A stretch of DNA of 64,000 bases from Clostridiales bacterium (GTDB taxonomy: Bacteria; Bacillota; Clostridia; Lachnospirales; Lachnospiraceae), in assembly GCA_020860715.1 (NCBI GenBank), contig JAJBTU010000032.1, positions 1 to 64,000 of the forward strand, written 5' to 3'. Below are positions 31,854 to 45,598 of this stretch, one piece after another (positions within the stretch are counted from its first letter, which is position 1; each line of letters begins with the position of its first letter). The notes under the pieces are model-generated. The model saw only the letters and a program-made list of their open reading frames with translations. It was not told where the DNA came from and did not search any database. Position numbers and translations under genes: made by a program.

Positions 31854-31940
31854 AAATACATACGTCTCCTTGAAAATAATATTTCTTAATGATATTTCTT
31901 AAAGGCTCTAAAAATGATTCAAACACCGCTTCATTTCTAC

Positions 31941-32144
31941 TCGCAGCACAGCTGCTCGTTGACCCTCGAGCCGCGAGCCGCCATCGCTTAGCGATCTCTC
32001 ATGCGGCACGCAACCTGGCAGGTGCAGCTTTAGCTGCGCGTGCCGATTCCTTTCCTGCTGCAAGCAGCGCAAATCTCTTCTATTCGCAGCACAGCTGCTC
32101 GTTGACCCTCGAGATTTCCTGCTGCAAGCAGCGCAAATCTCTTC
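31941..32144. repeat. Interleaved repeat and hairpin array
   Basis: A 30-base unit (starting TCGCAGCACAGCTGCTCGTT) occurs exactly at 31941-31970 and 32084-32113. A second 30-base unit (starting TTTCCTGCTGCAAGCAGCGC) occurs exactly at 32051-32080 and 32115-32144. The stretch between the first pair holds several stem-loops (ATCGC-TTA-GCGAT; GCACGC/GCGTGC enclosing GCAGC-TTTA-GCTGC). The 540-base gap has no gene. It looks like a non-autonomous palindromic element or an array of such elements. Confidence 0.8.
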
Positions 32145-33340: not shown

Positions 33341-33459
33341 TGGAGAGATGTGGATTGAGATGAAACAATATTCGGTAGTGGAAGAGGCGGCCATTGGGGG
33401 ACACGTAATTAAAATAGTTTCATGTACGAGCAGTTAGAAACATGAGGGAGAAAGATTGT

Positions 33460-33537
33460 ATGAACCTGAAAATCGCATTGCTTCAGATCCTTCCTGGGAA
33501 GAACCTTACGGAGCAGACCAATGTGGCCACGGTGTGA
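33460..33537 (+). pseudogene. Truncated 5' copy of the nitrilase gene
   Basis: The first 20 codons (MNLKIALLQILPGKNLTEQT) match the nitrilase gene at 41470 with only two residue differences, and the upstream leader (from about 33431) is also similar. Similarity then stops and a TGA ends the frame after 25 codons. This is a remnant from duplication or from recombination at the nitrilase 5' end. A 25-codon frame just upstream (33360-33437) was not recognised. Confidence 0.85.
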
Positions 33538-36008: not shown

Positions 36009-36757
36009 TGTTGGGATATTTAATTCTGACTGTTTTGTTTTTGATTGTATTTGCATTATTGCTTTTTGTGCTTGAACCGAGGATGGTGGAGAAACGCCTT
36101 GCACAGGTCCAAAACCAGCTGGCAGAGCGGCAGATGGAGGAATTGCAGAGCAATTACAGGGAGTTGCGCGGCTGGCGGCATGACTGGCGGAATCATATGC
36201 AGGCTTTGAAGGTCTATGTGGATGGCGGCGATCTGGACAAGGCGGCGGATTATATTGTGCAGATGGGCGAGGCATTTGAACGTGTGGCGCAGACCGTGAA
36301 GTCCGGCAATGCCATGGCGGATGCGATTATCAACAGTAAATTATCTCTGGCGCGTGAAAAGGGGATCGCAATGGATGCGACATTCCGCGTCCCGGAAATA
36401 CTGCCAGTATCGGATGTGGAATTCTGTGTTTTGTTTGGAAATCTGATGGACAATGCAATCGAAAGCTGTTTGACGATTCCCGAAAAAGAGAAACGCTTTA
36501 TCCGGATCTATATAAGTACCTTTCAGGAGCAGTTTTATCTGTCAATTTCTAACGCGACGGCAAAAATGACACGAACAGCGACTTATTTTTCCTGGAAAGG
36601 GAAGGGACATGGATTCGGGATGACGAATATTGATTCCGTGGTAAAACACCACAAGGGCTACTTAAATCGCAGCAACGAGCCAGGTGTCTTTCAAACAGAG
36701 TTGATGATTCCGTATTATAGTGAACGACAAAATTCTTTTGTCATTCACTATAAATGA
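36008..36757 (+). CDS. AgrC-like GHKL sensor histidine kinase, short sensor region
   Basis: This 249-residue protein has one membrane segment (about residues 4-24), a coiled linker, the phospho-acceptor region GWRHDWRNHMQAL with His near residue 59, and a GHKL ATPase domain with N-box NLMDNAIESC (about 143-152) and G-box GHGFGMTNI (about 203-211). AgrC-type kinases normally have five to seven membrane helices that sense a peptide; here only one helix remains, so it may sense with a partner such as the exporter or respond inside the membrane. It overlaps the response regulator gene (ATGA). Confidence 0.9.
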   Translation: MLGYLILTVLFLIVFALLLFVLEPRMVEKRLAQVQNQLAERQMEELQSNYRELRGWRHDWRNHMQALKVYVDGGDLDKAADYIVQMGEAFERVAQTVKSGNAMADAIINSKLSLAREKGIAMDATFRVPEILPVSDVEFCVLFGNLMDNAIESCLTIPEKEKRFIRIYISTFQEQFYLSISNATAKMTRTATYFSWKGKGHGFGMTNIDSVVKHHKGYLNRSNEPGVFQTELMIPYYSERQNSFVIHYK

Positions 36758-36763
36758 TGCACA

Positions 36764-36879
36764 CAGACGCGCATGGAAGTGCCACTTCGCTGCGCTCGGA
36801 GGCAGGACGCCTCGCCCATGAGAGTTCGCTTCGCGAAGGGCGAGGCTGAGGAATGGCTGCTTGCGCAGCCCCGCGTCTG
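36764..36879. repeat. Palindromic element, copy 1
   Basis: The core (36774-36846, 73 nt) starts TGGAAGTGCC and folds into two arms. The second arm is the perfect stem GCCTCGCCC/GGGCGAGGC (36809-36817, 36838-36846) enclosing TTCGC-TTC-GCGAA. This copy is extended by a GGCTGC-TTGC-GCAGCC hairpin, and the whole is closed by an outer stem CAGACGCG (36764-36771) / CGCGTCTG (36872-36879). It starts seven bases after the kinase stop codon. Confidence 0.85.
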
Positions 36880-36912
36880 GCGCAGAGTAAAACAACTTAC
36901 GTCGTTTACTAT

Positions 36913-36947
36913 AATAACCGCTTATGTCTGGAAAATAACCGCTTGTG
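36913..36947 (+). promoter_or_regulatory. Double LytTR-like operator before the ABC exporter operon
   Basis: Two 14-base direct repeats, AATAACCGCTTATG (36913) and AATAACCGCTTGTG (36934), are spaced exactly 21 bases start to start. Their cores ACCGCTTAT and ACCGCTTGT fit the LytTR half-site pattern ([TA][AC][CA]GTTN[AG][TG]) in 8 of 9 positions, with a 12-base gap as expected. A TATAAT (36910-36915) overlaps the first repeat, and a possible TATGTT -10 lies just downstream (36964-36969). Control by the neighbouring regulator is inferred. Confidence 0.65.
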
Positions 36948-36978
36948 AAAAAAAACAAAAAAATATGTTTTGAATGTG

Positions 36979-37018
36979 ATATCCTCTCCTTATGGACAAT
37001 AAGCAGAGGATATTTTTT
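36979..37018 (+). terminator. Terminator-like hairpin in the ABC exporter leader
   Basis: ATATCCTCTCCTTAT (36979-36993) pairs with ATAAGCAGAGGATAT (36999-37013) with one mismatch and a 5-base loop, followed by six T. It lies between the operator and the exporter genes, so it may end the two-component transcript or act as an attenuator. Confidence 0.75.
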
Positions 37019-37054
37019 CTGCTATTTTGAGCAGTTACATTCATTACATGATAA

Positions 37055-37127
37055 TGGAAATGCCACCTCGCTGCGCTCGGAGGCAGAACGCCTCGTCCAT
37101 GAGAGTTCGCTTCGCGAAGGGCGAGGC
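37055..37127. repeat. Palindromic element, copy 2
   Basis: Exactly 73 nt and nearly identical to the core of copy 1. In the second arm, GCCTCGTCC (37090-37098) pairs with GGGCGAGGC (37119-37127), with one C-to-T change that keeps a G-U pair. It ends just before the ribosome site (ccggagg) of the first ABC gene. Confidence 0.85.
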
Positions 37128-37145
37128 TCCGGAGGTCTTACAGCT

Positions 37146-38969
37146 ATGAAGAGGAAATCATTATTGCAATATCAATGGAAAAAGAACCGGGCAGTTTTCT
37201 TTTGCGGATTTTTCTATGTGCCGACGGGAATCCTGGCGGGTTTGCTGCGGATTTATCTGCCCAAGGCGGTGCTTTCGGAGTTGGAAACCTCACAGACCGT
37301 GGCGCACATGGGAATGACGCTTCTTGTAATTTCAGTGGCGCTGCTTTTACTTCTGCTGATGCAGACAAGGCTTGAGGTGTCAATTTCACGTTACGGGTAT
37401 TTACTTCTTCAGGAAATGCGAGGAGAGTATGCCAGAAGACTTCTTACCGCAAATTATGAAGAAATGGAAACGCAGGATTTTCGTTCGGCGCGTGATCAGG
37501 CAAAACAGGCAATTTACGGTGAACGGATGGATGGAAAAAACGTTACTCCGGTCAATGATTTTATGAAAAATCTGTTGTCTGCACTTACCAATATAGGCTC
37601 TGTGGTGCTCTATACTGTGATGATTGCCCGGGTTTCACCGATCCTGATCCCTGTGCTTCTTCTGCCGCCGATGCTGATTTTTTATCTGGATGGAAAGGTC
37701 GGTGTTCGGGAAGAGAAAAATTGGGATGTGGAAGCGGGCGCGTATCAGAAGGAGGAGTATACGAGAAAACGCGCCGGGGATTTTACTTACGCAAAAGATA
37801 TACGTCTCTACAATATGAAACCGTGGCTGCTTGGCGTGAATCAAAAATATGCCGGGATAAGGCTTGGCTCAAAAAAAGAGGAGCTTCTGTTTACCGGAGG
37901 CCTTGCGGTAGTCAATAATGTAATTAATTATCTGCAAATTGCCTGTATCTGCGGATCCTTTTTGTACCAGGCATGGATTGGACGAATAACGATATCCGAT
38001 GTAGTACTTTATTTCGGAGCGGCTACTTCTTTAACGTCAGCATTGCTTACAGCCTCTCAAACAATGGTTATCCTACGCCTTATGGGGATCAATTATCAGA
38101 AATACGCGGATTTCGTTGATATACCGGAAGGTAAATTAGATGAGGGTGAAATACTTCCTTCAAAAGAGGAGTTGACTGAGCCCGATAATCTAAATTCTGA
38201 AGCGGTTACATTGGAGCTGCAGTCAGTTTCCTATCGTTTTCCGGATACAGATACAGATTTACTGCATAATCTGAACCTGACTGTAAAAAGCGGTGATCGA
38301 ATTGCAGTTGTGGGATTAAACGGCGCCGGTAAAACTACACTAATGAAGCTGCTTTGCGGTCTTTTGACTCCTACAGGCGGGAGAATTCTTTTAAATGGAG
38401 TGGATATGAGTACCCTGCCGCCCGAAAAGCGGTATGAATGGTTTTCCTGTGCGTTTCAGGATATTGGGTTCCTGCCGGTATCTGTGCAGGAAAATATATG
38501 TGGCTATGGAAAAGCTGACAGATTTAAACTTTTTGATTGTCTGGAAAAAGCCGGTATCATAGATAAGATACTTTCCCTTCCAGATAGCGTGAATACTTTG
38601 ATGGAAAAGGATATAAATGAGGACGCGGTTGATTTTTCCGGAGGGGAAAAGCAAAAGCTTGCGCTGGCACGCGCCCTGTACCAAGATCGGCCGGTACTGA
38701 TATTGGATGAGCCGACGGCGGCGCTTGATCCGCTGGCTGAATATGAGATGTATCAGCGTTACGCGGATTTTGCAAAGGACAAATTGTCTTTCTTCGTGTC
38801 GCACCGTTTATCCAGTACAAGATTTTGCACACGTATCCTGCTTTTGCAGGACGGCTGCTTTGCGGAGCAGGGGACGCATGAGGAATTGCTTAAGAAGAAT
38901 GGCGTGTATGCGGAACTGTTTCGGCTGCAGAGTTATTATTATAATCGAGAGAAAGAGGGTATGGTATGA
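37146..38969 (+). CDS. ABC exporter half, first subunit
   Basis: This 607-residue protein has an N-terminal membrane domain with about six helices (residues 15-320) and a C-terminal nucleotide-binding domain. Walker A is GLNGAGKTT (about 388-396), the signature FSGGEKQ (about 496), and Walker B/D-loop LILDEPTAALDP. H-loop SHRLSS is present. It is a half-transporter that most likely pairs with the next gene's product, whose start overlaps its stop by four bases. An in-frame extension to 36945 runs through the palindromic element and has no ribosome site; ccggagg precedes ATG 37146. With an AgrAC-like system upstream, export of a peptide or resistance to one is likely; no precursor peptide gene was found. 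Confidence 0.92.
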   Translation: MKRKSLLQYQWKKNRAVFFCGFFYVPTGILAGLLRIYLPKAVLSELETSQTVAHMGMTLLVISVALLLLLLMQTRLEVSISRYGYLLLQEMRGEYARRLLTANYEEMETQDFRSARDQAKQAIYGERMDGKNVTPVNDFMKNLLSALTNIGSVVLYTVMIARVSPILIPVLLLPPMLIFYLDGKVGVREEKNWDVEAGAYQKEEYTRKRAGDFTYAKDIRLYNMKPWLLGVNQKYAGIRLGSKKEELLFTGGLAVVNNVINYLQIACICGSFLYQAWIGRITISDVVLYFGAATSLTSALLTASQTMVILRLMGINYQKYADFVDIPEGKLDEGEILPSKEELTEPDNLNSEAVTLELQSVSYRFPDTDTDLLHNLNLTVKSGDRIAVVGLNGAGKTTLMKLLCGLLTPTGGRILLNGVDMSTLPPEKRYEWFSCAFQDIGFLPVSVQENICGYGKADRFKLFDCLEKAGIIDKILSLPDSVNTLMEKDINEDAVDFSGGEKQKLALARALYQDRPVLILDEPTAALDPLAEYEMYQRYADFAKDKLSFFVSHRLSSTRFCTRILLLQDGCFAEQGTHEELLKKNGVYAELFRLQSYYYNREKEGMV

Positions 38970-40831
38970 AAATGGAAAATATGCGTTTGAAGGAAATGCT
39001 GCGTATCAATTTCAGGGGGCTTACGTTTATCGCCCGGGATAAAATCCGGGGAATCTTTCTGATGCTTTTTATCGGGATCATCAACGCCGTTTATACATTC
39101 TGGAATGTGTGGCTGCTCGCCGTGCTGGCGGACGCTTTACAGGCACATGCCTCTGCGCAGACTCTGATTCGGGATCTTGCTTTGATGGCAGGAGGCGGCT
39201 TGCTCGTAGGTGCAGTGAATTTCACCTCCTATTACATCCTGTTTTATATTGGCTCGAATGTATGGGAGCAGGCAGATCTGGCGCTGAACAGTAAAATGAT
39301 GGACATGGATTATGAGTATATGGAATCTGAGAAGGTTCAGAATCAGAGGCGCGACCTTGATGAAATGACGCGCAGTTATGGGGGCGGCGGTATTAATTTC
39401 CTGTTCTGGAGAGGGGAGGCCGTTGTCCGTACAACAACAGAGGTTCTGATTGCTGTTTTTTATCTGGCTCAGATGATTTATAAAAGTGCCACCCTTCCGG
39501 GAACACATTCCCGGGAAATGGGATTTATGACCGCCCTATTTATGTTGATGCTCGCGGCGGCGCTGATTTTTTCCTACAGGAAAAATATTCGCTGGCAGGA
39601 GGATCGGTTTTCTCTGGAAAATAAAATGATTCCTGTGAATCGCTCCTTTACCTGGTATGTGGAAAATTATCTGGAGAAGACAGAGGCTTCAAAAAATATT
39701 CGGCTTTTTAAGCAGCAGTCGGTCTTAATGGAACGAATTCAGAATATTTTCGAATCCATTACCGATAAGGTTGGGCGTATAACGGAGATTGATGAGAAAA
39801 TACAGCTTTTTCTGGGCGCACTGCGGGCAGTGCTTCTGGGACTTGTCTATTTCCTGCTTGGAGCGATTGCCCTGCAGGGTGGAATGACCGCCGGAAATGT
39901 GGTGCTATACGCGGGAGCAATTGGGATTCTCATTGAATATTTCAACGAATGGGTGTTTATCTTGACAGAGCTTGCTACAAATAGCAAATATCTGAAAGCA
40001 TTCTTTGATTTTCTCGATATTCCGAATCAAAAGTATGAAGGGACACTGCATACAGAGAAGCGGGATGATGACCGTTTCGAGGTGGAATTTCGGCATGTAT
40101 CCTTTCACTATCCGGGCAGCAAGCAGGATGTACTTAAGGATTTCTCTATCCGTTTCCGGATTGGCGAGCGGCTGGCTGTCGTGGGAGAAAATGGGTGCGG
40201 TAAGACCACTGTAATTAAGCTACTCTGCCGTCTCTACGATCCGACCGAAGGAGAGATTTTACTGAATGGCATTGACATTCGCAAGTATGACTATCAGGAA
40301 TATATGAATTTGTTCGGAGTCGTCTTTCAGGATTTTAAGCTGTTGTCCATGCCACTCGGACAGAACATTGCCGCGAGTGAAATCTATTCCCCCGAGCGTG
40401 TGTATGATGCGCTCGCGCGGATGGGAATGTCGGATTACGCAAAAAACCTTGAGAAAGGACTGGATACAGTATTATATAAGGATTTTGACAGCTCCGGAAT
40501 CGAAGTGTCCGGCGGCGAGGCGCAGAAGCTGGCGATGGCGCGGGCTCTGTACCGGGATGCGCCGTTTCTGATTTTGGACGAGCCAACCGCTGCGCTTGAC
40601 CCAATCGCTGAATACGAGGTTTACTCTAAATTCGACGAGCTTGTAGGGACAAAGACTGCGGTGTATATTTCCCACCGCTTATCCAGCTGCCGGTTCTGCA
40701 ATGACATTCTCGTGATTGCGGACGGCCGGGCGGTGCAGCGCGGAAGTCATGAGGAGCTGCTTGCGGATGAGAAAGGGCTATATTACCGGCTTTGGATGGC
40801 ACAGGCACAGTATTATGTACATGGGAAGTAA
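38966..40831 (+). CDS. ABC exporter half, second subunit
   Basis: This 621-residue half-transporter has about six membrane helices (residues 20-330) and a nucleotide-binding domain with Walker A GENGCGKTT (about 407-415), signature VSGGEAQ (about 514), FLILDEPTAALDP and SHRLSS. Its ATG overlaps the TGA of the first subunit, indicating coupled translation and a heterodimeric exporter. Both subunits have canonical signature motifs and the Walker B Glu, so neither nucleotide site is visibly degenerate. No peptidase C39 domain is present, so it would not itself cleave a leader peptide. Confidence 0.92.
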   Translation: MKMENMRLKEMLRINFRGLTFIARDKIRGIFLMLFIGIINAVYTFWNVWLLAVLADALQAHASAQTLIRDLALMAGGGLLVGAVNFTSYYILFYIGSNVWEQADLALNSKMMDMDYEYMESEKVQNQRRDLDEMTRSYGGGGINFLFWRGEAVVRTTTEVLIAVFYLAQMIYKSATLPGTHSREMGFMTALFMLMLAAALIFSYRKNIRWQEDRFSLENKMIPVNRSFTWYVENYLEKTEASKNIRLFKQQSVLMERIQNIFESITDKVGRITEIDEKIQLFLGALRAVLLGLVYFLLGAIALQGGMTAGNVVLYAGAIGILIEYFNEWVFILTELATNSKYLKAFFDFLDIPNQKYEGTLHTEKRDDDRFEVEFRHVSFHYPGSKQDVLKDFSIRFRIGERLAVVGENGCGKTTVIKLLCRLYDPTEGEILLNGIDIRKYDYQEYMNLFGVVFQDFKLLSMPLGQNIAASEIYSPERVYDALARMGMSDYAKNLEKGLDTVLYKDFDSSGIEVSGGEAQKLAMARALYRDAPFLILDEPTAALDPIAEYEVYSKFDELVGTKTAVYISHRLSSCRFCNDILVIADGRAVQRGSHEELLADEKGLYYRLWMAQAQYYVHGK

Positions 40832-40909
40832 AGGTTATGGTAGAATCAAGATGCAGCCTGTTGCACAGCGAATGTGAATACGGGAGTGCCAAAAAGGAGA
40901 CGTAGAGTT

Positions 40910-41293
40910 ATGAGATATTTGTGGCTTGACGATTTTTTGATGAATAAACCGTTTGTGACAAAAGATATCCAAAAGGACTGGAACTGGATTCGGTATCAGA
41001 TTGGTGGAAAAATGTTTGCGGCGGTCTGTCTGGAATGGGGAACAAACAAGCCGTATTATATTACGCTGAAGCTGGAGCCGTCAGAAGGAGATTTCCTGCG
41101 GCAGCAGTACGAGGACATTATTCCTGGATACTACATGAATAAAACACATTGGAATTCAGTAAAACCGGACGGAAATGTCCCGGATGACCTGTTAAAGGAT
41201 ATGCTAAATAAGTCTTACTTTCTTGTATGGTCTGGATTCAGCAGGAAAAAACAAAAAGAAATTCTCAGGAAAATGGCCCAGAGTATTTTATAA
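40910..41293 (+). CDS. MmcQ/YjbR family protein, copy 2
   Basis: This 127-residue protein shows the MmcQ/YjbR features: an N-terminal LDDFLMNKPFVTKDIQKDWN region, MFAAVCLEWGTNKPYYITLKL in the middle and PGYYMNKTHWNSVKPDG near residue 80. It resembles the protein at 32975 mainly in the PGY-MNK-W motif, so the pair is diverged. aaaggagacg precedes ATG 40910; a longer in-frame start at 40874 lacks a ribosome site. The nitrilase gene follows, as the nitrilase fragment follows copy 1. Confidence 0.85.
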   Translation: MRYLWLDDFLMNKPFVTKDIQKDWNWIRYQIGGKMFAAVCLEWGTNKPYYITLKLEPSEGDFLRQQYEDIIPGYYMNKTHWNSVKPDGNVPDDLLKDMLNKSYFLVWSGFSRKKQKEILRKMAQSIL

Positions 41294-41469
41294 CAAGAAG
41301 GAGTAAAGAAATACATTTGAGATTGGCATTCGGCTCATCGGAATCGGGTGCTTTTTTCTGATTTTAGAGATGGCAAAATATCGAATCATATGGTATTATG
41401 GCTGATGATGTTAGAGGTTGCAATTGTCAATTGGTTATAGGACAGTTGAATATGAGGAAGATAGATTGT

Positions 41470-42306
41470 ATGAACCTGAAAATCGCATTGCTTCAGCTCC
41501 TTCCTGGGAAGGACCTTACAGAGCAGACTATGATTGGAAAGAAAGCCTGTGAGCAGGCTAAGGCTATGGGTGCGCATATTGCGTTATTCCCCGAGATGTG
41601 GAGCAGTGGATATTACATCCCACAGGATGAGAAAGCTGTAAATGAGTTGTCTGTTTCGGCCAAAGATGATTTTGTACAGGGTTTTCGCGCTTTGGCGGCT
41701 GACCTTGAGATGGCTATTGGAATCACCTTTCTTGAAAAGCATGAACCAAAACCACTGAATTCCATAATTCTTTTTGACAGAAAAGGGCAGGAAGTGCTTC
41801 ATTATTCTAAGGTACACACTTGCGCATTTGCTGATGAGAAAATGCTGTCGGAGGGAGAAGACTTTTATGTGGCGGATTTGGATATTGGAGAAGACATAGT
41901 GAAGGTCGGCTCCATGATTTGCTTTGACAGAGAATTTCCAGAGAGTGCACGAATTCTGATGTTAAAGGGCGCGGAGGTTGTGTTAGCTCCCAATGCCTGC
42001 CCGATGGAAATCAACCGGCTTTGTACGCTTCGCGCCAGAGCTTATGAGAATATGATTGCTATTGCTACATGCAATTATCCGGCCGGTCAGCCGGACTGTA
42101 ACGGGCATTCCACCGTTTTTGACGGTATCGCGTGGTTTCGCGATGAACCGTGGGTACGGGATATGTGCATACTGGAAGCGCCGGAGGAAGAAGGCATTTA
42201 TATTGCCGAGATTGATATGGATTTGCTGCGGGATTATCGCAAGCGTGAGGTGAACGGGAATAAATATCGTCATCCGGAAAAATATGGGGTGATAACGGAA
42301 GGATAA
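41470..42306 (+). CDS. Nitrilase superfamily carbon-nitrogen hydrolase
   Basis: This protein of about 278 residues has the Glu-Lys-Cys triad of the nitrilase fold: Glu in LFPEMW (near 41), Lys in HYSKVHTC (near 114) and Cys in SMICFDREFPE (near 151). It could be an omega-amidase, which hydrolyses 2-oxoglutaramate or similar keto-amides; the class I aminotransferase at 46538 would fit as partner, but this is inference. gaggaag precedes ATG 41470; an in-frame ATG at 41452 overlaps that site. Its first 20 codons are duplicated at 33460. The preceding 170 bases hold no recognised signal. Confidence 0.9.
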   Translation: MNLKIALLQLLPGKDLTEQTMIGKKACEQAKAMGAHIALFPEMWSSGYYIPQDEKAVNELSVSAKDDFVQGFRALAADLEMAIGITFLEKHEPKPLNSIILFDRKGQEVLHYSKVHTCAFADEKMLSEGEDFYVADLDIGEDIVKVGSMICFDREFPESARILMLKGAEVVLAPNACPMEINRLCTLRARAYENMIAIATCNYPAGQPDCNGHSTVFDGIAWFRDEPWVRDMCILEAPEEEGIYIAEIDMDLLRDYRKREVNGNKYRHPEKYGVITEG

Positions 42307-42326
42307 AAATGAGATGGAGTAAATGA

Positions 42327-43097
42327 ATGATGACAAATAACGAAGTACTTCAGGCAGCAATGCAGCAGTCTGCATGGGACATGAACTGCAATCCCGATGT
42401 TTTTCTTAGGGACGAACCGGTACTGGTGACATCCGATATTGGGGAAAAAGCGAAAAACTATTATAAAGAACCCATTGCATGCAACTTTATATCGTATGGA
42501 AGCAATATAGTTGCAGCAGCGAAAACAGAGTATCGGGAAATCACGAAGGAGTATATTCATAAGTTTGATTTTTATCATTGCTTTGAGACTCCTAATTTGC
42601 ATTGGCTTAATCAAAGGCTGGAACCATTGGGGCAGAAGGTGTGTTTTATGGCGGAGTATTGGCTGCCGGATTTACAAAAAATGCAGCGCATTTCCTGTGA
42701 CTATCAGCTTCGGGTATTAACGCAGCCCGATTTTCAGAAATTATATACAGACGAATGGAGCAATGCGCTTTGTGAAGACAGGAAAGAATTGGATGTGTTA
42801 GGGGTAGGCGCATACGACAATGGCATACTGATTGGTCTGGCTGGGTGTTCCGCGGATGCCGAGAATATGTGGCAGATCGGGGTAGATGTTCTTCCGTCTT
42901 ACAGGAAGCAGGGGATTGCCGCTTCTTTAGTAAGCAATCTGGCAATGGAAACGATAGACAGAGGCAAGCTCCCTTTTTACTGCTGCGCATGGTCTAATAT
43001 ACGTTCGGCAAAAACAGCCATAAAAGCCGGCTTTTGTCCGGGATGGGTGGAAATGACTGTAAAGCCGGCAGAGGTTGTTAATGAAATGAATAAGTAA
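42327..43097 (+). CDS. GNAT acetyltransferase with N-terminal extension
   Basis: This 256-residue protein has a C-terminal GNAT domain (about 130-245) with the acetyl-CoA loop in VDVLPSYRKQGIAASL (about 191-206) and AWSNIRSAKTAIKAGF. The first 125 residues are an extension seen in some GNAT proteins of anaerobes and contain no motif I can name. ggag seven bases before the ATG supports the start. It follows the nitrilase gene by about 20 bases and is likely co-transcribed. Confidence 0.85.
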   Translation: MMTNNEVLQAAMQQSAWDMNCNPDVFLRDEPVLVTSDIGEKAKNYYKEPIACNFISYGSNIVAAAKTEYREITKEYIHKFDFYHCFETPNLHWLNQRLEPLGQKVCFMAEYWLPDLQKMQRISCDYQLRVLTQPDFQKLYTDEWSNALCEDRKELDVLGVGAYDNGILIGLAGCSADAENMWQIGVDVLPSYRKQGIAASLVSNLAMETIDRGKLPFYCCAWSNIRSAKTAIKAGFCPGWVEMTVKPAEVVNEMNK

Positions 43098-43118
43098 GGA
43101 GGCAGCAGCTCAAAGGTA

Positions 43119-43424
43119 ATGATGCTCGTGGATGATGAGGAACTGGTATCATTTTGTACATATGCAGTAAAAGACGATATTCCATCAACAACACTTACTC
43201 CATGTATTAGGTTTGTATATACCTTTCCGCAATACCGCGGGCATCACTACATGGGGATGTTGTTTGATGAAATAGAAAAGCGGGCGAAAAATGAGAATGT
43301 TCCTGCTATTTACATTTCAACGAATCATACCGGGCTGTATGAAAAATATGGATACAGTTTTTATCAGATGATGAAAGACATGGAAGGCGAGCCATCCAGA
43401 GTTTACAGGAAAGAACTTGTGTGA
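43119..43424 (+). pseudogene. N-terminally truncated GNAT acetyltransferase
   Basis: The 101 visible residues are the C-terminal two thirds of a GNAT protein, from the beta strand MMLVDDEELVSFCTYA through the acetyl-CoA loop in VYTFPQYRGHHYMGML to GLYEKYGYSFYQMM. The normal first 50 or so residues are missing: upstream in the same frame there is only a short stretch to a stop at 43095. AGGAGG at 43097-43102 is too far from the ATG to serve it well. It is probably a remnant, though expression of a short protein cannot be excluded. Confidence 0.65.
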
Positions 43425-43473
43425 AGCCATGTTGTAATTCAATCAGTTTCGCCGGAAGGGAGCGAGAAACATA

Positions 43474-43551
43474 TGACGAGAATATATTTTGTGCGTCATG
43501 CACAGCCATTACATTCATGGAAGGACGATAGAACAAGATCAGACTTATAAG
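43474..43551 (+). pseudogene. N-terminal fragment of a histidine phosphatase
   Basis: MTRIYFVRHAQPLHSWKDD is a clear start of a phosphoglycerate-mutase-type histidine phosphatase with the RHxQP motif. The frame ends at TAA after 25 codons and no continuation was recognised downstream. gaagggagcgag upstream is a leftover ribosome site. The rest of the 360-base gap holds a promoter for the Fic gene. Confidence 0.7.
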
Positions 43552-43674
43552 TGGATAGATCGGGACAACCTAATCAATATGCGGAAAACAGAATTGGTGA
43601 CTGGCAGGATACAGTTTTTTTGGAAGAATTGTAAAGATGACTTTGAATAACAATAGATTTCAGCATAAATCATC

Positions 43675-43702
43675 TTGAATTCCTGACAGTATGCGGTATA
43701 AT
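43675..43702 (+). promoter_or_regulatory. Promoter for the Fic gene, followed by 12-bp tandem repeat
   Basis: TTGAAT, 16 bases and TATAAT (43697-43702). Directly downstream, GCAAGATAATAC is repeated exactly twice (43705-43728) with a half unit after it, at the expected transcription start. Confidence 0.55.
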
Positions 43703-43784
43703 GAGCAAGATAATACGCAAGATAATACGCAAGAATCTGTAGTATTATACAATGTTCTTTAACGTGTGCAGATATGGAGGAAGA

Positions 43785-44780
43785 ATGGAGAAGTTTGAAC
43801 CACCTTTTACCATAACAAATGAAATGCTGTCCTGTGTGGCTTCCGTTTCAGAAAAAATCGGAAGGATTACCGCAGTTGGCAGCCTGGACTCTAGGCCGCA
43901 TCTGAGGAAGAATAACCGAATCCGCTCGATTCACTCATCTCTGAAAATTGAGGCGAATTCTCTTACGCTTGGGCAGGTGAGGGATGTCATAAATGGAAAA
44001 ACTGTGCTGGGCGGGCAGAAGGAGATTCAGGAAGTAAAAAATGCTTATGTGGCATATGGGTTGCTGGACGAAATAAACCCATGGAGTATCGAAGACCTGA
44101 AGCGTTTTCATGGAATTATGACAAAATATGTTGTGGAGGAATCCGGTATTTTCCGCCGGGGTGAGGAAGGAGTATTCCACGGCGATGAGTGTATCTTTAT
44201 GGCTCCGCCGGCCAGAATGGTTTCGCAGCTTATAGAAGACCTTTTTGGCTGGATGGAGAAATCGCGGGACAAGATTCATCCGCTGATTCTTAGCTGTGTT
44301 TTTCACTATGAATTCGTATTTATTCATCCATTTGCAGACGGTAATGGCAGAATGGCGCGGTTATGGCAAACTGCGATTCTCTCAAAGTGGAAACCTGTTT
44401 TTGCATATATTCCTCTGGAAAGTCAGATCGAGCGATTCCAAGAGGAATATTATGATGCGATTGCAAGGTGCCATGTGGAGGGAAAATCGAACGCATTTAT
44501 AGAATTTATGCTGTCGCAGATTGACGGGATTCTGGATGATATCGCGGCGCAGATAGATGAAGAAAGCGCGCAGCTGTCCGAATATGTCAGAAAACTACTG
44601 GGGGTTATGGAATACAACGTTCCGTATACAGGGAAAACACTGATGGACAGACTGGGATTAAGATCCAGAGAGACCTTCCGCCGGAATTATCTTCATCCCG
44701 CGATGGAGCGGGGACTTGTTCGGAGAACCATCCCGGATAAACCGCAAAGCAGAAATCAGAGGTATGTAAAGACGGAATGA
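43785..44780 (+). CDS. Fic family protein (AMPylator type)
   Basis: This 331-residue protein has the full Fic motif HPFADGNGRMAR near residue 182, so transfer of AMP or a similar group to a target hydroxyl is likely. An N-terminal SSLKIEAN segment (about 48-55) matches the [ST]xxxE[GN] inhibitory helix only loosely: the position after Glu is Ala. A winged-helix-like C-terminus (about 280-330, LMDRLGLRSRETFRRNYL) follows. Such chromosomal Fic proteins often control their own target or act as toxin-like regulators. tggaggaaga precedes ATG 43785; an in-frame ATG at 43752 has no ribosome site. Confidence 0.9.
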   Translation: MEKFEPPFTITNEMLSCVASVSEKIGRITAVGSLDSRPHLRKNNRIRSIHSSLKIEANSLTLGQVRDVINGKTVLGGQKEIQEVKNAYVAYGLLDEINPWSIEDLKRFHGIMTKYVVEESGIFRRGEEGVFHGDECIFMAPPARMVSQLIEDLFGWMEKSRDKIHPLILSCVFHYEFVFIHPFADGNGRMARLWQTAILSKWKPVFAYIPLESQIERFQEEYYDAIARCHVEGKSNAFIEFMLSQIDGILDDIAAQIDEESAQLSEYVRKLLGVMEYNVPYTGKTLMDRLGLRSRETFRRNYLHPAMERGLVRRTIPDKPQSRNQRYVKTE

Positions 44781-44795
44781 TTTATCGGCGTTAAT

Positions 44796-45598
44796 GTGAA
44801 AATGAATTCGGAGCGTGCGGTGCAGTTTCGCAAATGGGTGAATCAGATTGCCAAAGATTATACCATAAAAGGCTGGGTGTTGGATGATGAGCGATTGAAA
44901 AACGGAGGCTCCGTACTTACAACGGAGTACTTTGACCGATTGCTTGAACAGATACGGGAAATCCGTCTGTCTGAGCGTAGATTCTATCAGAAGATAACAG
45001 ATATCTATGCCACAGCACTCGATAATGATCGTACAGCTAAAACAACGAGGCAGTTTTTTGCAAAAATATGGAAATGCCCCCTCGCTATGCTTCGGCGGCA
45101 AGTCGCGCCTGCAACAAAAAAAACGCTGTGCGTTTGGCAGGCGCTCAGAATAAGATGCACTACGCAGTGCATGGACACACATCTGCTGAACTTATTTATG
45201 AGCGTGCTGACGAAGAAAAGGAGCATATGGGACTTACCACATGGGCGGCGGCACCTGAAGGCAAAATCGTTAAGAGCGATGTAAGCATAGCAAAGAATTA
45301 TCTTACGGAGCAGGAGATGCGCTCACTGGAACGTATTGTGTCGGCGTATCTGGATCTGGCAGAGGATCGGGCGGAACGACGTATACCAATGACGATGGAG
45401 GATTGGTCGAAACGTCTGGATTTATTCTTAATGGCAGATGATAGAGAACTTTTGCAGGATGCAGGGAAAATTACAGCAGAGATAGCCAAGGCTAAAGCAG
45501 AGACAGAATTTGAGAAGTACAGAATCGTTCAGGACAGATTATTTATGTCGGATTTTGATAAATATATTCTGGAATTAGAAGAAAATGCGAAGAAATAA
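44796..45598 (+). pseudogene. RhuM-family gene, truncated and interrupted by palindromic element
   Basis: Two frames together make the C-terminal two thirds of a RhuM-like protein. The first part runs from SERAVQFRKWVNQIAKDY to TTRQFFAK (up to about 45068); the second resumes at QNKMHYAVHGHTSAELIYER (from 45146) and ends normally at 45598. Between them lies a 77-base palindromic element that shifts the frame. The usual N-terminal third of the family (about 95 residues) is also absent. RhuM proteins are found in pathogenicity and mobile islands; their function is unclear. The gene is inactive as read. Confidence 0.88.
45069..45145. repeat. Palindromic element, copy 3, inside rhuM
   Basis: The first 35 bases match the other two copies (TGGAAATGCC, then CTCGCT-GCT-CGG-GGCA). 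The second arm differs in sequence but not in form: GCGCCTGC pairs with GCAGGCGC (ending 45144) and encloses AACGC-TGT-GCGTT. The 77-base length is inferred from where RhuM homology stops and resumes, and is not a multiple of three. Confidence 0.8.

Follow-up and report, generated by a model that had tools for sequence, protein, structure and literature searches.

Rickettsia palindromic elements (RPEs) are described as short repeated palindromes that lie in frame in unrelated genes (PMC3767692, PMC10969869, PMC2229807), and according to one of these reports their sites tend to be common to several species (PMC3767692). The present analysis concerns a repeated two-hairpin palindrome in 64,000 nt of DNA from a Clostridiales bacterium of the family Lachnospiraceae (contig JAJBTU010000032.1, positions 1 to 64,000, referred to as the window), which shares with RPEs the in-frame insertion in protein-coding genes. 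The two are likened by features, not by sequence: RPEs are about 100-150 bp long and belong to Rickettsia and Wolbachia, whereas this element measures 75 or 78 nt and belongs to another phylum, to metagenome-assembled genomes (MAGs) of Lachnospiraceae and Clostridiales. It is also set apart by sites that differ between genomes of 95-96% identity, by exact joins and by a target motif. The way in which RPEs and other coding palindromes move is, to our knowledge, an open question, in part owing to the obligate intracellular life of the RPE hosts and to the sharing of RPE sites between species. The repeats of the window are very probably a short, non-autonomous mobile palindrome that is distributed genus-wide and belongs to the same family as the Rfam entry GA-cis (RF02987). 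The unit is usually 75 or 78 nt long; its left hairpin is imperfect and conserved, and the outer stem of its right hairpin covaries freely. By analogy, the GA-cis element would work here like an RPE.

Other described systems resemble the element in part. Members of the IS200/IS605 family have hairpins near both ends, produce no target duplication and show a short motif whose distance to the insertion point is constant. The element likewise has hairpins near both ends, no target duplication and a loose GNNGAA-like motif directly to its right, but, unlike IS200/IS605, it is not accompanied by a Y1 transposase, neither in its own genome nor linked to any copy as far as found. From a miniature inverted-repeat transposable element of a DDE transposon it differs in that no target site duplication is visible at the empty sites shown. 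GTAG and CGTC repetitive extragenic palindromes (REPs) are also short palindromes of high copy number, and the CGTC type is reported to lack a dedicated transposase and to include RPE-4 and RPE-6 (PMC3733652). Unlike these REPs, the element is a two-hairpin unit residing mostly within genes, and only 4 of 104 copies have CGTC in front of the right stem. GA-cis corresponds to the element in sequence and structure on the minus strand, including the two hairpins with covariation. It is typed 'Gene; sRNA' in Rfam and was reportedly proposed as cis-regulatory when originally described, but here it appears to act as mobile DNA, situated mostly in open reading frames (ORFs) and reaching at least 85 copies in one genome. 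The entry is named in a table of the Rfam 15 paper (PMC11701678). In the literature searched, no report of such elements in this bacterial group was recognised.

Structure and distribution of the element

Three two-hairpin copies of 74-77 nt are present in the window at 36774-36847, 37055-37128 and 45069-45145, the positions given by an initial annotation made from the sequence. Comparison with an empty site in a relative places the start of the mobile unit of copy 1 one base further left. The resulting features are as follows:

36773..36847, plus strand: copy 1, mobile unit of 75 nt (covariance model R1, 95.4 bits)
36848..36853, plus strand: GAGGAA, target motif of the GNNGAA type, abutting copy 1 on the right and also contained in the empty site
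37054..37128, plus strand: copy 2 (R1, 95.8 bits), 75 nt by analogy with copy 1
45069..45145, plus strand: copy 3, 77 nt (R1, 56.1 bits), inside a RhuM-family gene with the frame broken

The first arm of each copy, TGGAA-TGCC ... GGCAGG or a near form of it, folds into an imperfect hairpin whose mismatches are conserved. The right part comprises an outer stem of 8-10 bp, a bulge of at least seven bases and a short inner hairpin; in copy 1, the left hairpin spans 36781-36803 and the two-part right hairpin 36809-36846. Copies 1 and 2 are 93% identical across 80 nt, while copy 3 shows 88% identity to copy 2 across the first 24 nt. As had been noticed initially, its right-hand architecture is that of copies 1 and 2 although the stem sequence differs. 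A C-to-T change in copy 2, thought to maintain pairing, does so, but only as a G-U/G-T wobble. The folding energy was not striking, with z values from -1.1 to -1.6 for five of the six strands of the three copies and -3.0 for the minus strand of copy 3. Taken alone it is weak evidence for structure, and the case for structure therefore rests on comparison.

Model R1 was built on the gapless alignment of the 74-nt class, which comprised 19 of 29 collected copies; for this reason, the 77-nt class scores lower with it. In the 19 aligned copies, 98.7% of 399 cells pair in the structure read off the sequence, and 8 of the 21 pairs are changed on both sides. The covariation score was 0.308 versus 0.142 after shuffling, a value reached in none of 500 shuffles. 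One of five covariation measures, the number of further pair types, was not above the shuffles, 413 of 500 reaching it. A larger table, restricted to distinct 74-nt copies without N, contained 104 copies with 55 different outer-stem sequences. Among 936 outer-stem cells, 889 are Watson-Crick, 14 are G-T and 33 mismatched, and at stem positions 37-38 all four pair types occur with very few intermediates. Both sets support the conserved fold with diverged sequence described in the initial annotation. The scarcity of wobble pairs would be easier to reconcile with DNA pairing, or with copying from arm to arm, than with an RNA helix.

All copy numbers should be taken as minimum values, since at most 104 candidates per genome were scored in the survey of the genus with R1, and in the surveys of the order at most 12 with R1 and at most 10 with the GA-cis model. 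At least 37 R1 matches with E<=0.01 were detected in the own genome, and 49 with E<=1. Within the genus, 28 of 47 genomes (own included) contain matches, up to at least 85 per genome, and 16 contain at least 20. BLAST searches revealed two further places in the own genome with copy 1 as query; with copy 2, 13 of 60 genomes gave matches, the own genome among them, and all 13 belong to the same genus. Across 392 genomes of the order, R1 detected the own genome and one borderline relative from another genus of the same family. The exact core pattern was found in four named records, MAGs called Lachnospiraceae or Clostridiales bacterium, while viral contigs gave no exact match to it. As a check of its proposal, the initial annotation had suggested searching this and related genomes with a covariance model, and had taken a lack of further copies or of covariation as speaking against it; further copies and covariation were both found, so that neither objection applies.

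With the GA-cis model, copies 1, 2 and 3 score 36.0, 40.4 and 37.4 bits on the minus strand, above the gathering cut-off of 34.7 bits; a degenerate fourth copy (see last section) stays below it. Nine sources, the window included, gave 13 GA-cis matches, and in the eight of them searched with both models 11 of 16 R1 matches reach the GA-cis cut-off. Ten of the 392 genomes of the order match GA-cis, and 8 of 173 genera, with at least nine matches in one genome of another genus. Of 22 GA-cis loci in other genera, only the tandem pair L255/L262 is clearly inside an ORF as judged by ORF length alone, near the end of that ORF.

Empty sites, target motif and insertion in reading frames

Mobility is indicated by presence and absence of the element in related genomes. 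Around copies 1 and 2, relative G030 shares 95-96% identity with the window. It lacks copy 1 as a block of exactly 75 nt, with neither duplication nor loss of sequence, while copy 2 is present but split by a nested insertion of 78 nt, another palindrome. The left flanks of 26 further copies of the own genome, copy 3 among them, were searched in eight relatives, giving 28 sites in total with copies 1 and 2. For twenty-three, an alignment with one or more relatives was obtained, and at ten of these a clean gap of 2-6 nt, that is an empty site, was observed (L072, L073, L075, L080, L081, L083, L086, L091, L094 and L095). The insert measures 75 or 78 nt at eight of the ten, 70 nt at L080 and 77 nt at L095. 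For copy 3, no relative was found among the eight searched by left flank. The empty sites, together with copy number and covariation, bear out the earlier suggestion of a non-autonomous mobile element.

For the analysis of insertion sites, R1 searches covered 98 + 60 sources from among the fetched loci. They yielded 198 matches (126 + 72), of which 190 were distinct; 161 of these passed a length window of 70-92 nt with a flank of at least 300 nt and were merged by flank similarity to 132 distinct sites. The right flank is tandem-like at 12 of the 132. Among the 120 non-tandem sites, the sequence to the right of the insertion has G at +1 (54%), G at +4 (66%), A at +5 (52%) and A at +6 (45%). 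GAA starts at +4 in 20 sites, whereas the other offsets scanned gave 0-7, except one with 11. The target is thus a GNNGAA-like motif directly 3' of the element, of the same form as the element's own left end, [A/G]TGGAA.

A site was assigned to an ORF if the emptied sequence had an ORF of at least 150 aa across it. By this definition, 83 of the 132 sites are inside ORFs. In 74 of these, the element is a multiple of three in length and contains no stop; of the remainder, four are stop-free but not a multiple of three, three are a multiple of three with a stop, and two are neither. Lengths that are multiples of three were significantly more frequent at ORF sites (77/83) than elsewhere (33/49; Fisher p 0.0004), and elements without a stop account for 78 of 83 ORF sites versus 81% in insertions simulated at motif sites. 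In the same loci, 81% of random positions and 79% of motif positions fall in ORFs, compared with 63% of the observed sites; genes are therefore somewhat under-represented, which is what a loss of some of the insertions would produce. Some tandem arrays that repeat every 75 nt (L109 and L111) likewise keep the frame.

Housekeeping genes are among the hosts. In the own genome, ileS and leuS carry the element, and their frames (1180 and 835 aa, respectively) remain open. PF00133 detects five genes in this genome, typed valS, metG, cysS, ileS and leuS; as there is one of each type, the element-bearing ileS and leuS are single copies. The insert in isoleucyl-tRNA synthetase (IleRS) is located between two stretches that align to solved structures (query 220 and 263), that in leucyl-tRNA synthetase between the catalytic and the editing Pfam domains, and both points are plausibly linkers. 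Further hosts are ArgJ, HflX, RibF (near the N terminus), a LacZ-type beta-galactosidase, an arylsulfotransferase (two copies in one ORF), an ABC-class ATPase and a radical SAM protein. Insertion of the element would thus lengthen a host protein by about 25-26 residues, typically METPPRxARRQ....

Orientation and phase of the insertions are biased. Of the 83 ORF sites, 44 are (+,0), 7 (+,2), 9 (+,1), 7 (-,0), 12 (-,1) and 4 (-,2). The motif itself, determined in 189 long ORFs, is distributed as (+,0) 32%, (+,2) 30%, (+,1) 6%, (-,0) 14%, (-,1) 10% and (-,2) 9%. Stops close the frame (+,2) more often than any other (it is open in 48 of 76 copies), and phase bias of the motif combined with avoidance of stops therefore explains most of the orientation and phase bias. 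A link between insertion and translation, also considered as its cause, is largely unnecessary, since these two factors come close.

Several observations weigh against a mobile element preserved in reading frames. At two of the ten clean empty sites the insert length is not divisible by three, 13 of the 23 alignable sites are filled in the relatives or show gaps of other lengths, and one of the four relatives empty at L073 points to an insert of 74 nt. As mobility is deduced from comparing relatives, the element could at each site have been lost from the relative instead. Among the ORF sites, 6 of 83 elements have a length not divisible by three and a stop occurs in 5 of 83; copy 3 breaks its host gene. 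ORFs were called by length and not by annotation, except for proteins scanned for domains. The target motif is loose, GAA occupying +4 to +6 in one sixth of the sites (20/120), and the phase fit is approximate, (+,0) making up 58% of the 76 sites outside (+,2) versus 46% expected from the motif. In addition, no mobilising enzyme was found, the own genome, rated 100% complete, being devoid of matches to Y1_Tnp (PF01797). Finally, the ileS site (L075/L126) of relative G062 is a clean empty site plus one extra codon, without the element. The extra codon (L126) is possibly an excision footprint.

Mode of movement and alternative explanations

The form in which the element moved was probably a single-strand hairpin. 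Folded single-stranded DNA could be the substrate of an enzyme that cuts |GNNGAA (TTCNNC| on the bottom strand) both at the left end of the element and at the flanking target, which would release the hairpin DNA. The released hairpin would then be joined at a site of the same kind, following the logic of IS200/IS605 transposition. Survivors in genes would be filtered by selection for an open frame, and the phase preference would need no link to translation, as it could arise from the phase bias of the motif minus the frame most often closed by stops. Taken together, GA-cis might be a still-active single-strand element with a site-specific enzyme of its own outside PF01797. It would recognise GNNGAA at its own end and in the target, and its stop-poor hairpin of 75 or 78 nt would open coding sequence to it as the main habitat, with peptides of 25-26 residues being written into housekeeping enzymes across a bacterial genus. 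This combined reading is offered tentatively, the odds being rather against all of its parts holding at once. Mechanisms of IS110, IS607, group II introns and integron attC sites were judged to fit poorly.

The element could be mobile and nevertheless owe the covariation of its stem not to selection on the fold but to template switching between the arms, known as quasi-palindrome correction. This is compatible with a mobile palindrome and is considered a minor but real possibility. Correction of this kind would account for stem positions 37-38, where each of the four Watson-Crick types occurs and intermediates are very few; it should, however, have erased the conserved mismatches of the left hairpin, and the conserved ends and the target motif suggest that the structure is read by an enzyme. 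The initial annotation had advised looking for a TnpA-REP-type enzyme, and the element could be a REP moved by a resident REP-associated tyrosine transposase (RAYT). Short hairpins, high copy number and lack of target duplication agree with this, but a REP/RAYT system is regarded as improbable. The search of the own genome with PF01797, which includes RAYTs, gave none, and across the genus the presence of Y1 does not track copy number: PF01797 is present in 25 of 47 genomes, in 11 of the 16 copy-rich ones (five being without it) and in 14 of the 31 others. Eight Y1 loci, fetched from some 50 listed Y1 places, contained no R1 match above 10.5 bits. GTAG, anywhere in the copy, was found in 7 of 104 copies, and with 83 of 132 sites in ORFs the element is mostly intragenic, not extragenic. 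A RAYT was therefore rejected as resident mobiliser, Y1 being absent from the own genome and, in the eight fetched loci, not linked to copies.

An even less probable explanation is a cis-regulatory structured RNA: regulation by the RNA fold would be the reason why copies persist upstream of genes. Each of the three window copies matches GA-cis, the covariation is strong, and in other genera some GA-cis matches adjoin sequences resembling a ribosome binding site (RBS), for example L250 and L253. Position and strand tell a different story. None of the three window copies is located upstream of a gene in GA-cis sense, the GA-cis strand being opposite to the neighbouring or host genes in each case. 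A start codon within 80 nt downstream in GA-cis sense follows 13 of the 49 non-ORF sites, but more starts (25/49) are found in the opposite sense. In ORFs, GA-cis is antisense to the gene at 60 of 83 sites and sense at 23. Precise empty sites, in-frame insertions in unrelated genes and the rarity of G-T pairs (14/936), unlike what is expected of an RNA helix, likewise disfavour a regulatory RNA. Insertion in essential genes and the strong fold also recall inserts that are removed from the mRNA like introns or skipped by ribosomes, and translational bypassing of palindromic inserts has been reported for yeast mitochondria (PMC6649704). Preservation of the frame (77/83) and freedom from stops (78/83) would be needless if the insert were removed, and the element is found inserted either way round; removal or bypassing of the insert is accordingly the least credible of the explanations.

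In this genus, the mobility of coding palindromes becomes testable, with dozens of copies per copy-rich genome, presence and absence at 95-96% identity, exact joins and a target motif. The data suggest that the RNA family GA-cis should be re-read as mobile DNA, and they call for caution, as 25-residue inserts in essential enzymes can be derived from transposons.

Surroundings of the copies and other repeats

A degenerate copy and the two portions of the host gene of copy 3 complete the features of the window:

31972..32051, minus strand: degenerate fourth copy, intergenic (R1, 28.8 bits, E 0.0034)
44796..45068, plus strand: RhuM-family gene, portion before copy 3 (PF13310 profile 35-122)
45146..45598, plus strand: RhuM-family gene, portion after copy 3 (PF13310 profile 123-248)

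In the fourth copy, the left hairpin, the ATGAGAG bulge and the inner hairpin are still recognisable. The PF13310 profile is interrupted by copy 3 exactly between profile positions 122 and 123. Copy 1 is intergenic, with genes for a GHKL-type sensor kinase on one side and an ABC exporter on the other (neighbours by Pfam), and copy 2 lies directly upstream of the RBS-like CGGAGG and the exporter ORF, whose start is likely at 37146 as judged from the sequence.

Copy 1 is itself nested in another intergenic repeat (window 36750-36915), CACACAGACGCG ... CGTCTGG ... ACTTACGTCGTTTACTATA, of which a second, empty example was detected in L110 from relative G032. A second palindromic family consists of a 39-nt unit, GATATCCC...ATGCC..CCCGGCGAGG, single or in tandem, and is nested in or adjoins the left hairpin of the element at L119:12691-12768 (G030), L099, L121, L137 and L053. 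Both of its lengths, 39 and 78 nt, keep the reading frame. A third type of nested insert, TCTCCGCTNCCGCTCCGGTCGGTG..., was found in the left hairpin at L096, L100 and L035. At L232, L186, L010 and L133, the 3' end of the element is repeated in direct orientation, over a short stretch, at the end of the left flank; this may be what is left of a copy inserted there earlier. Stems shared more 5-mers with their own flanks than expected (71 versus 33.4 after shuffling, 0/500); this link was not built upon, because inspection pointed in many cases to the remnant or the neighbourhood of a further copy.

Compared with L119 of G030, extra segments of 203 and 160 nt are present in the relative opposite window positions 38935 and 40840, and none in the window. 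Adjoining the fourth copy, a cluster of duplicated pieces of 30-36 nt with inverted repeats occupies window 31935-32144. Two stretches of 80 nt, 33439-33518 and 41449-41528, are 93% identical; the latter is located near the start of a 302-aa ORF, and the former may be a truncated duplicate.

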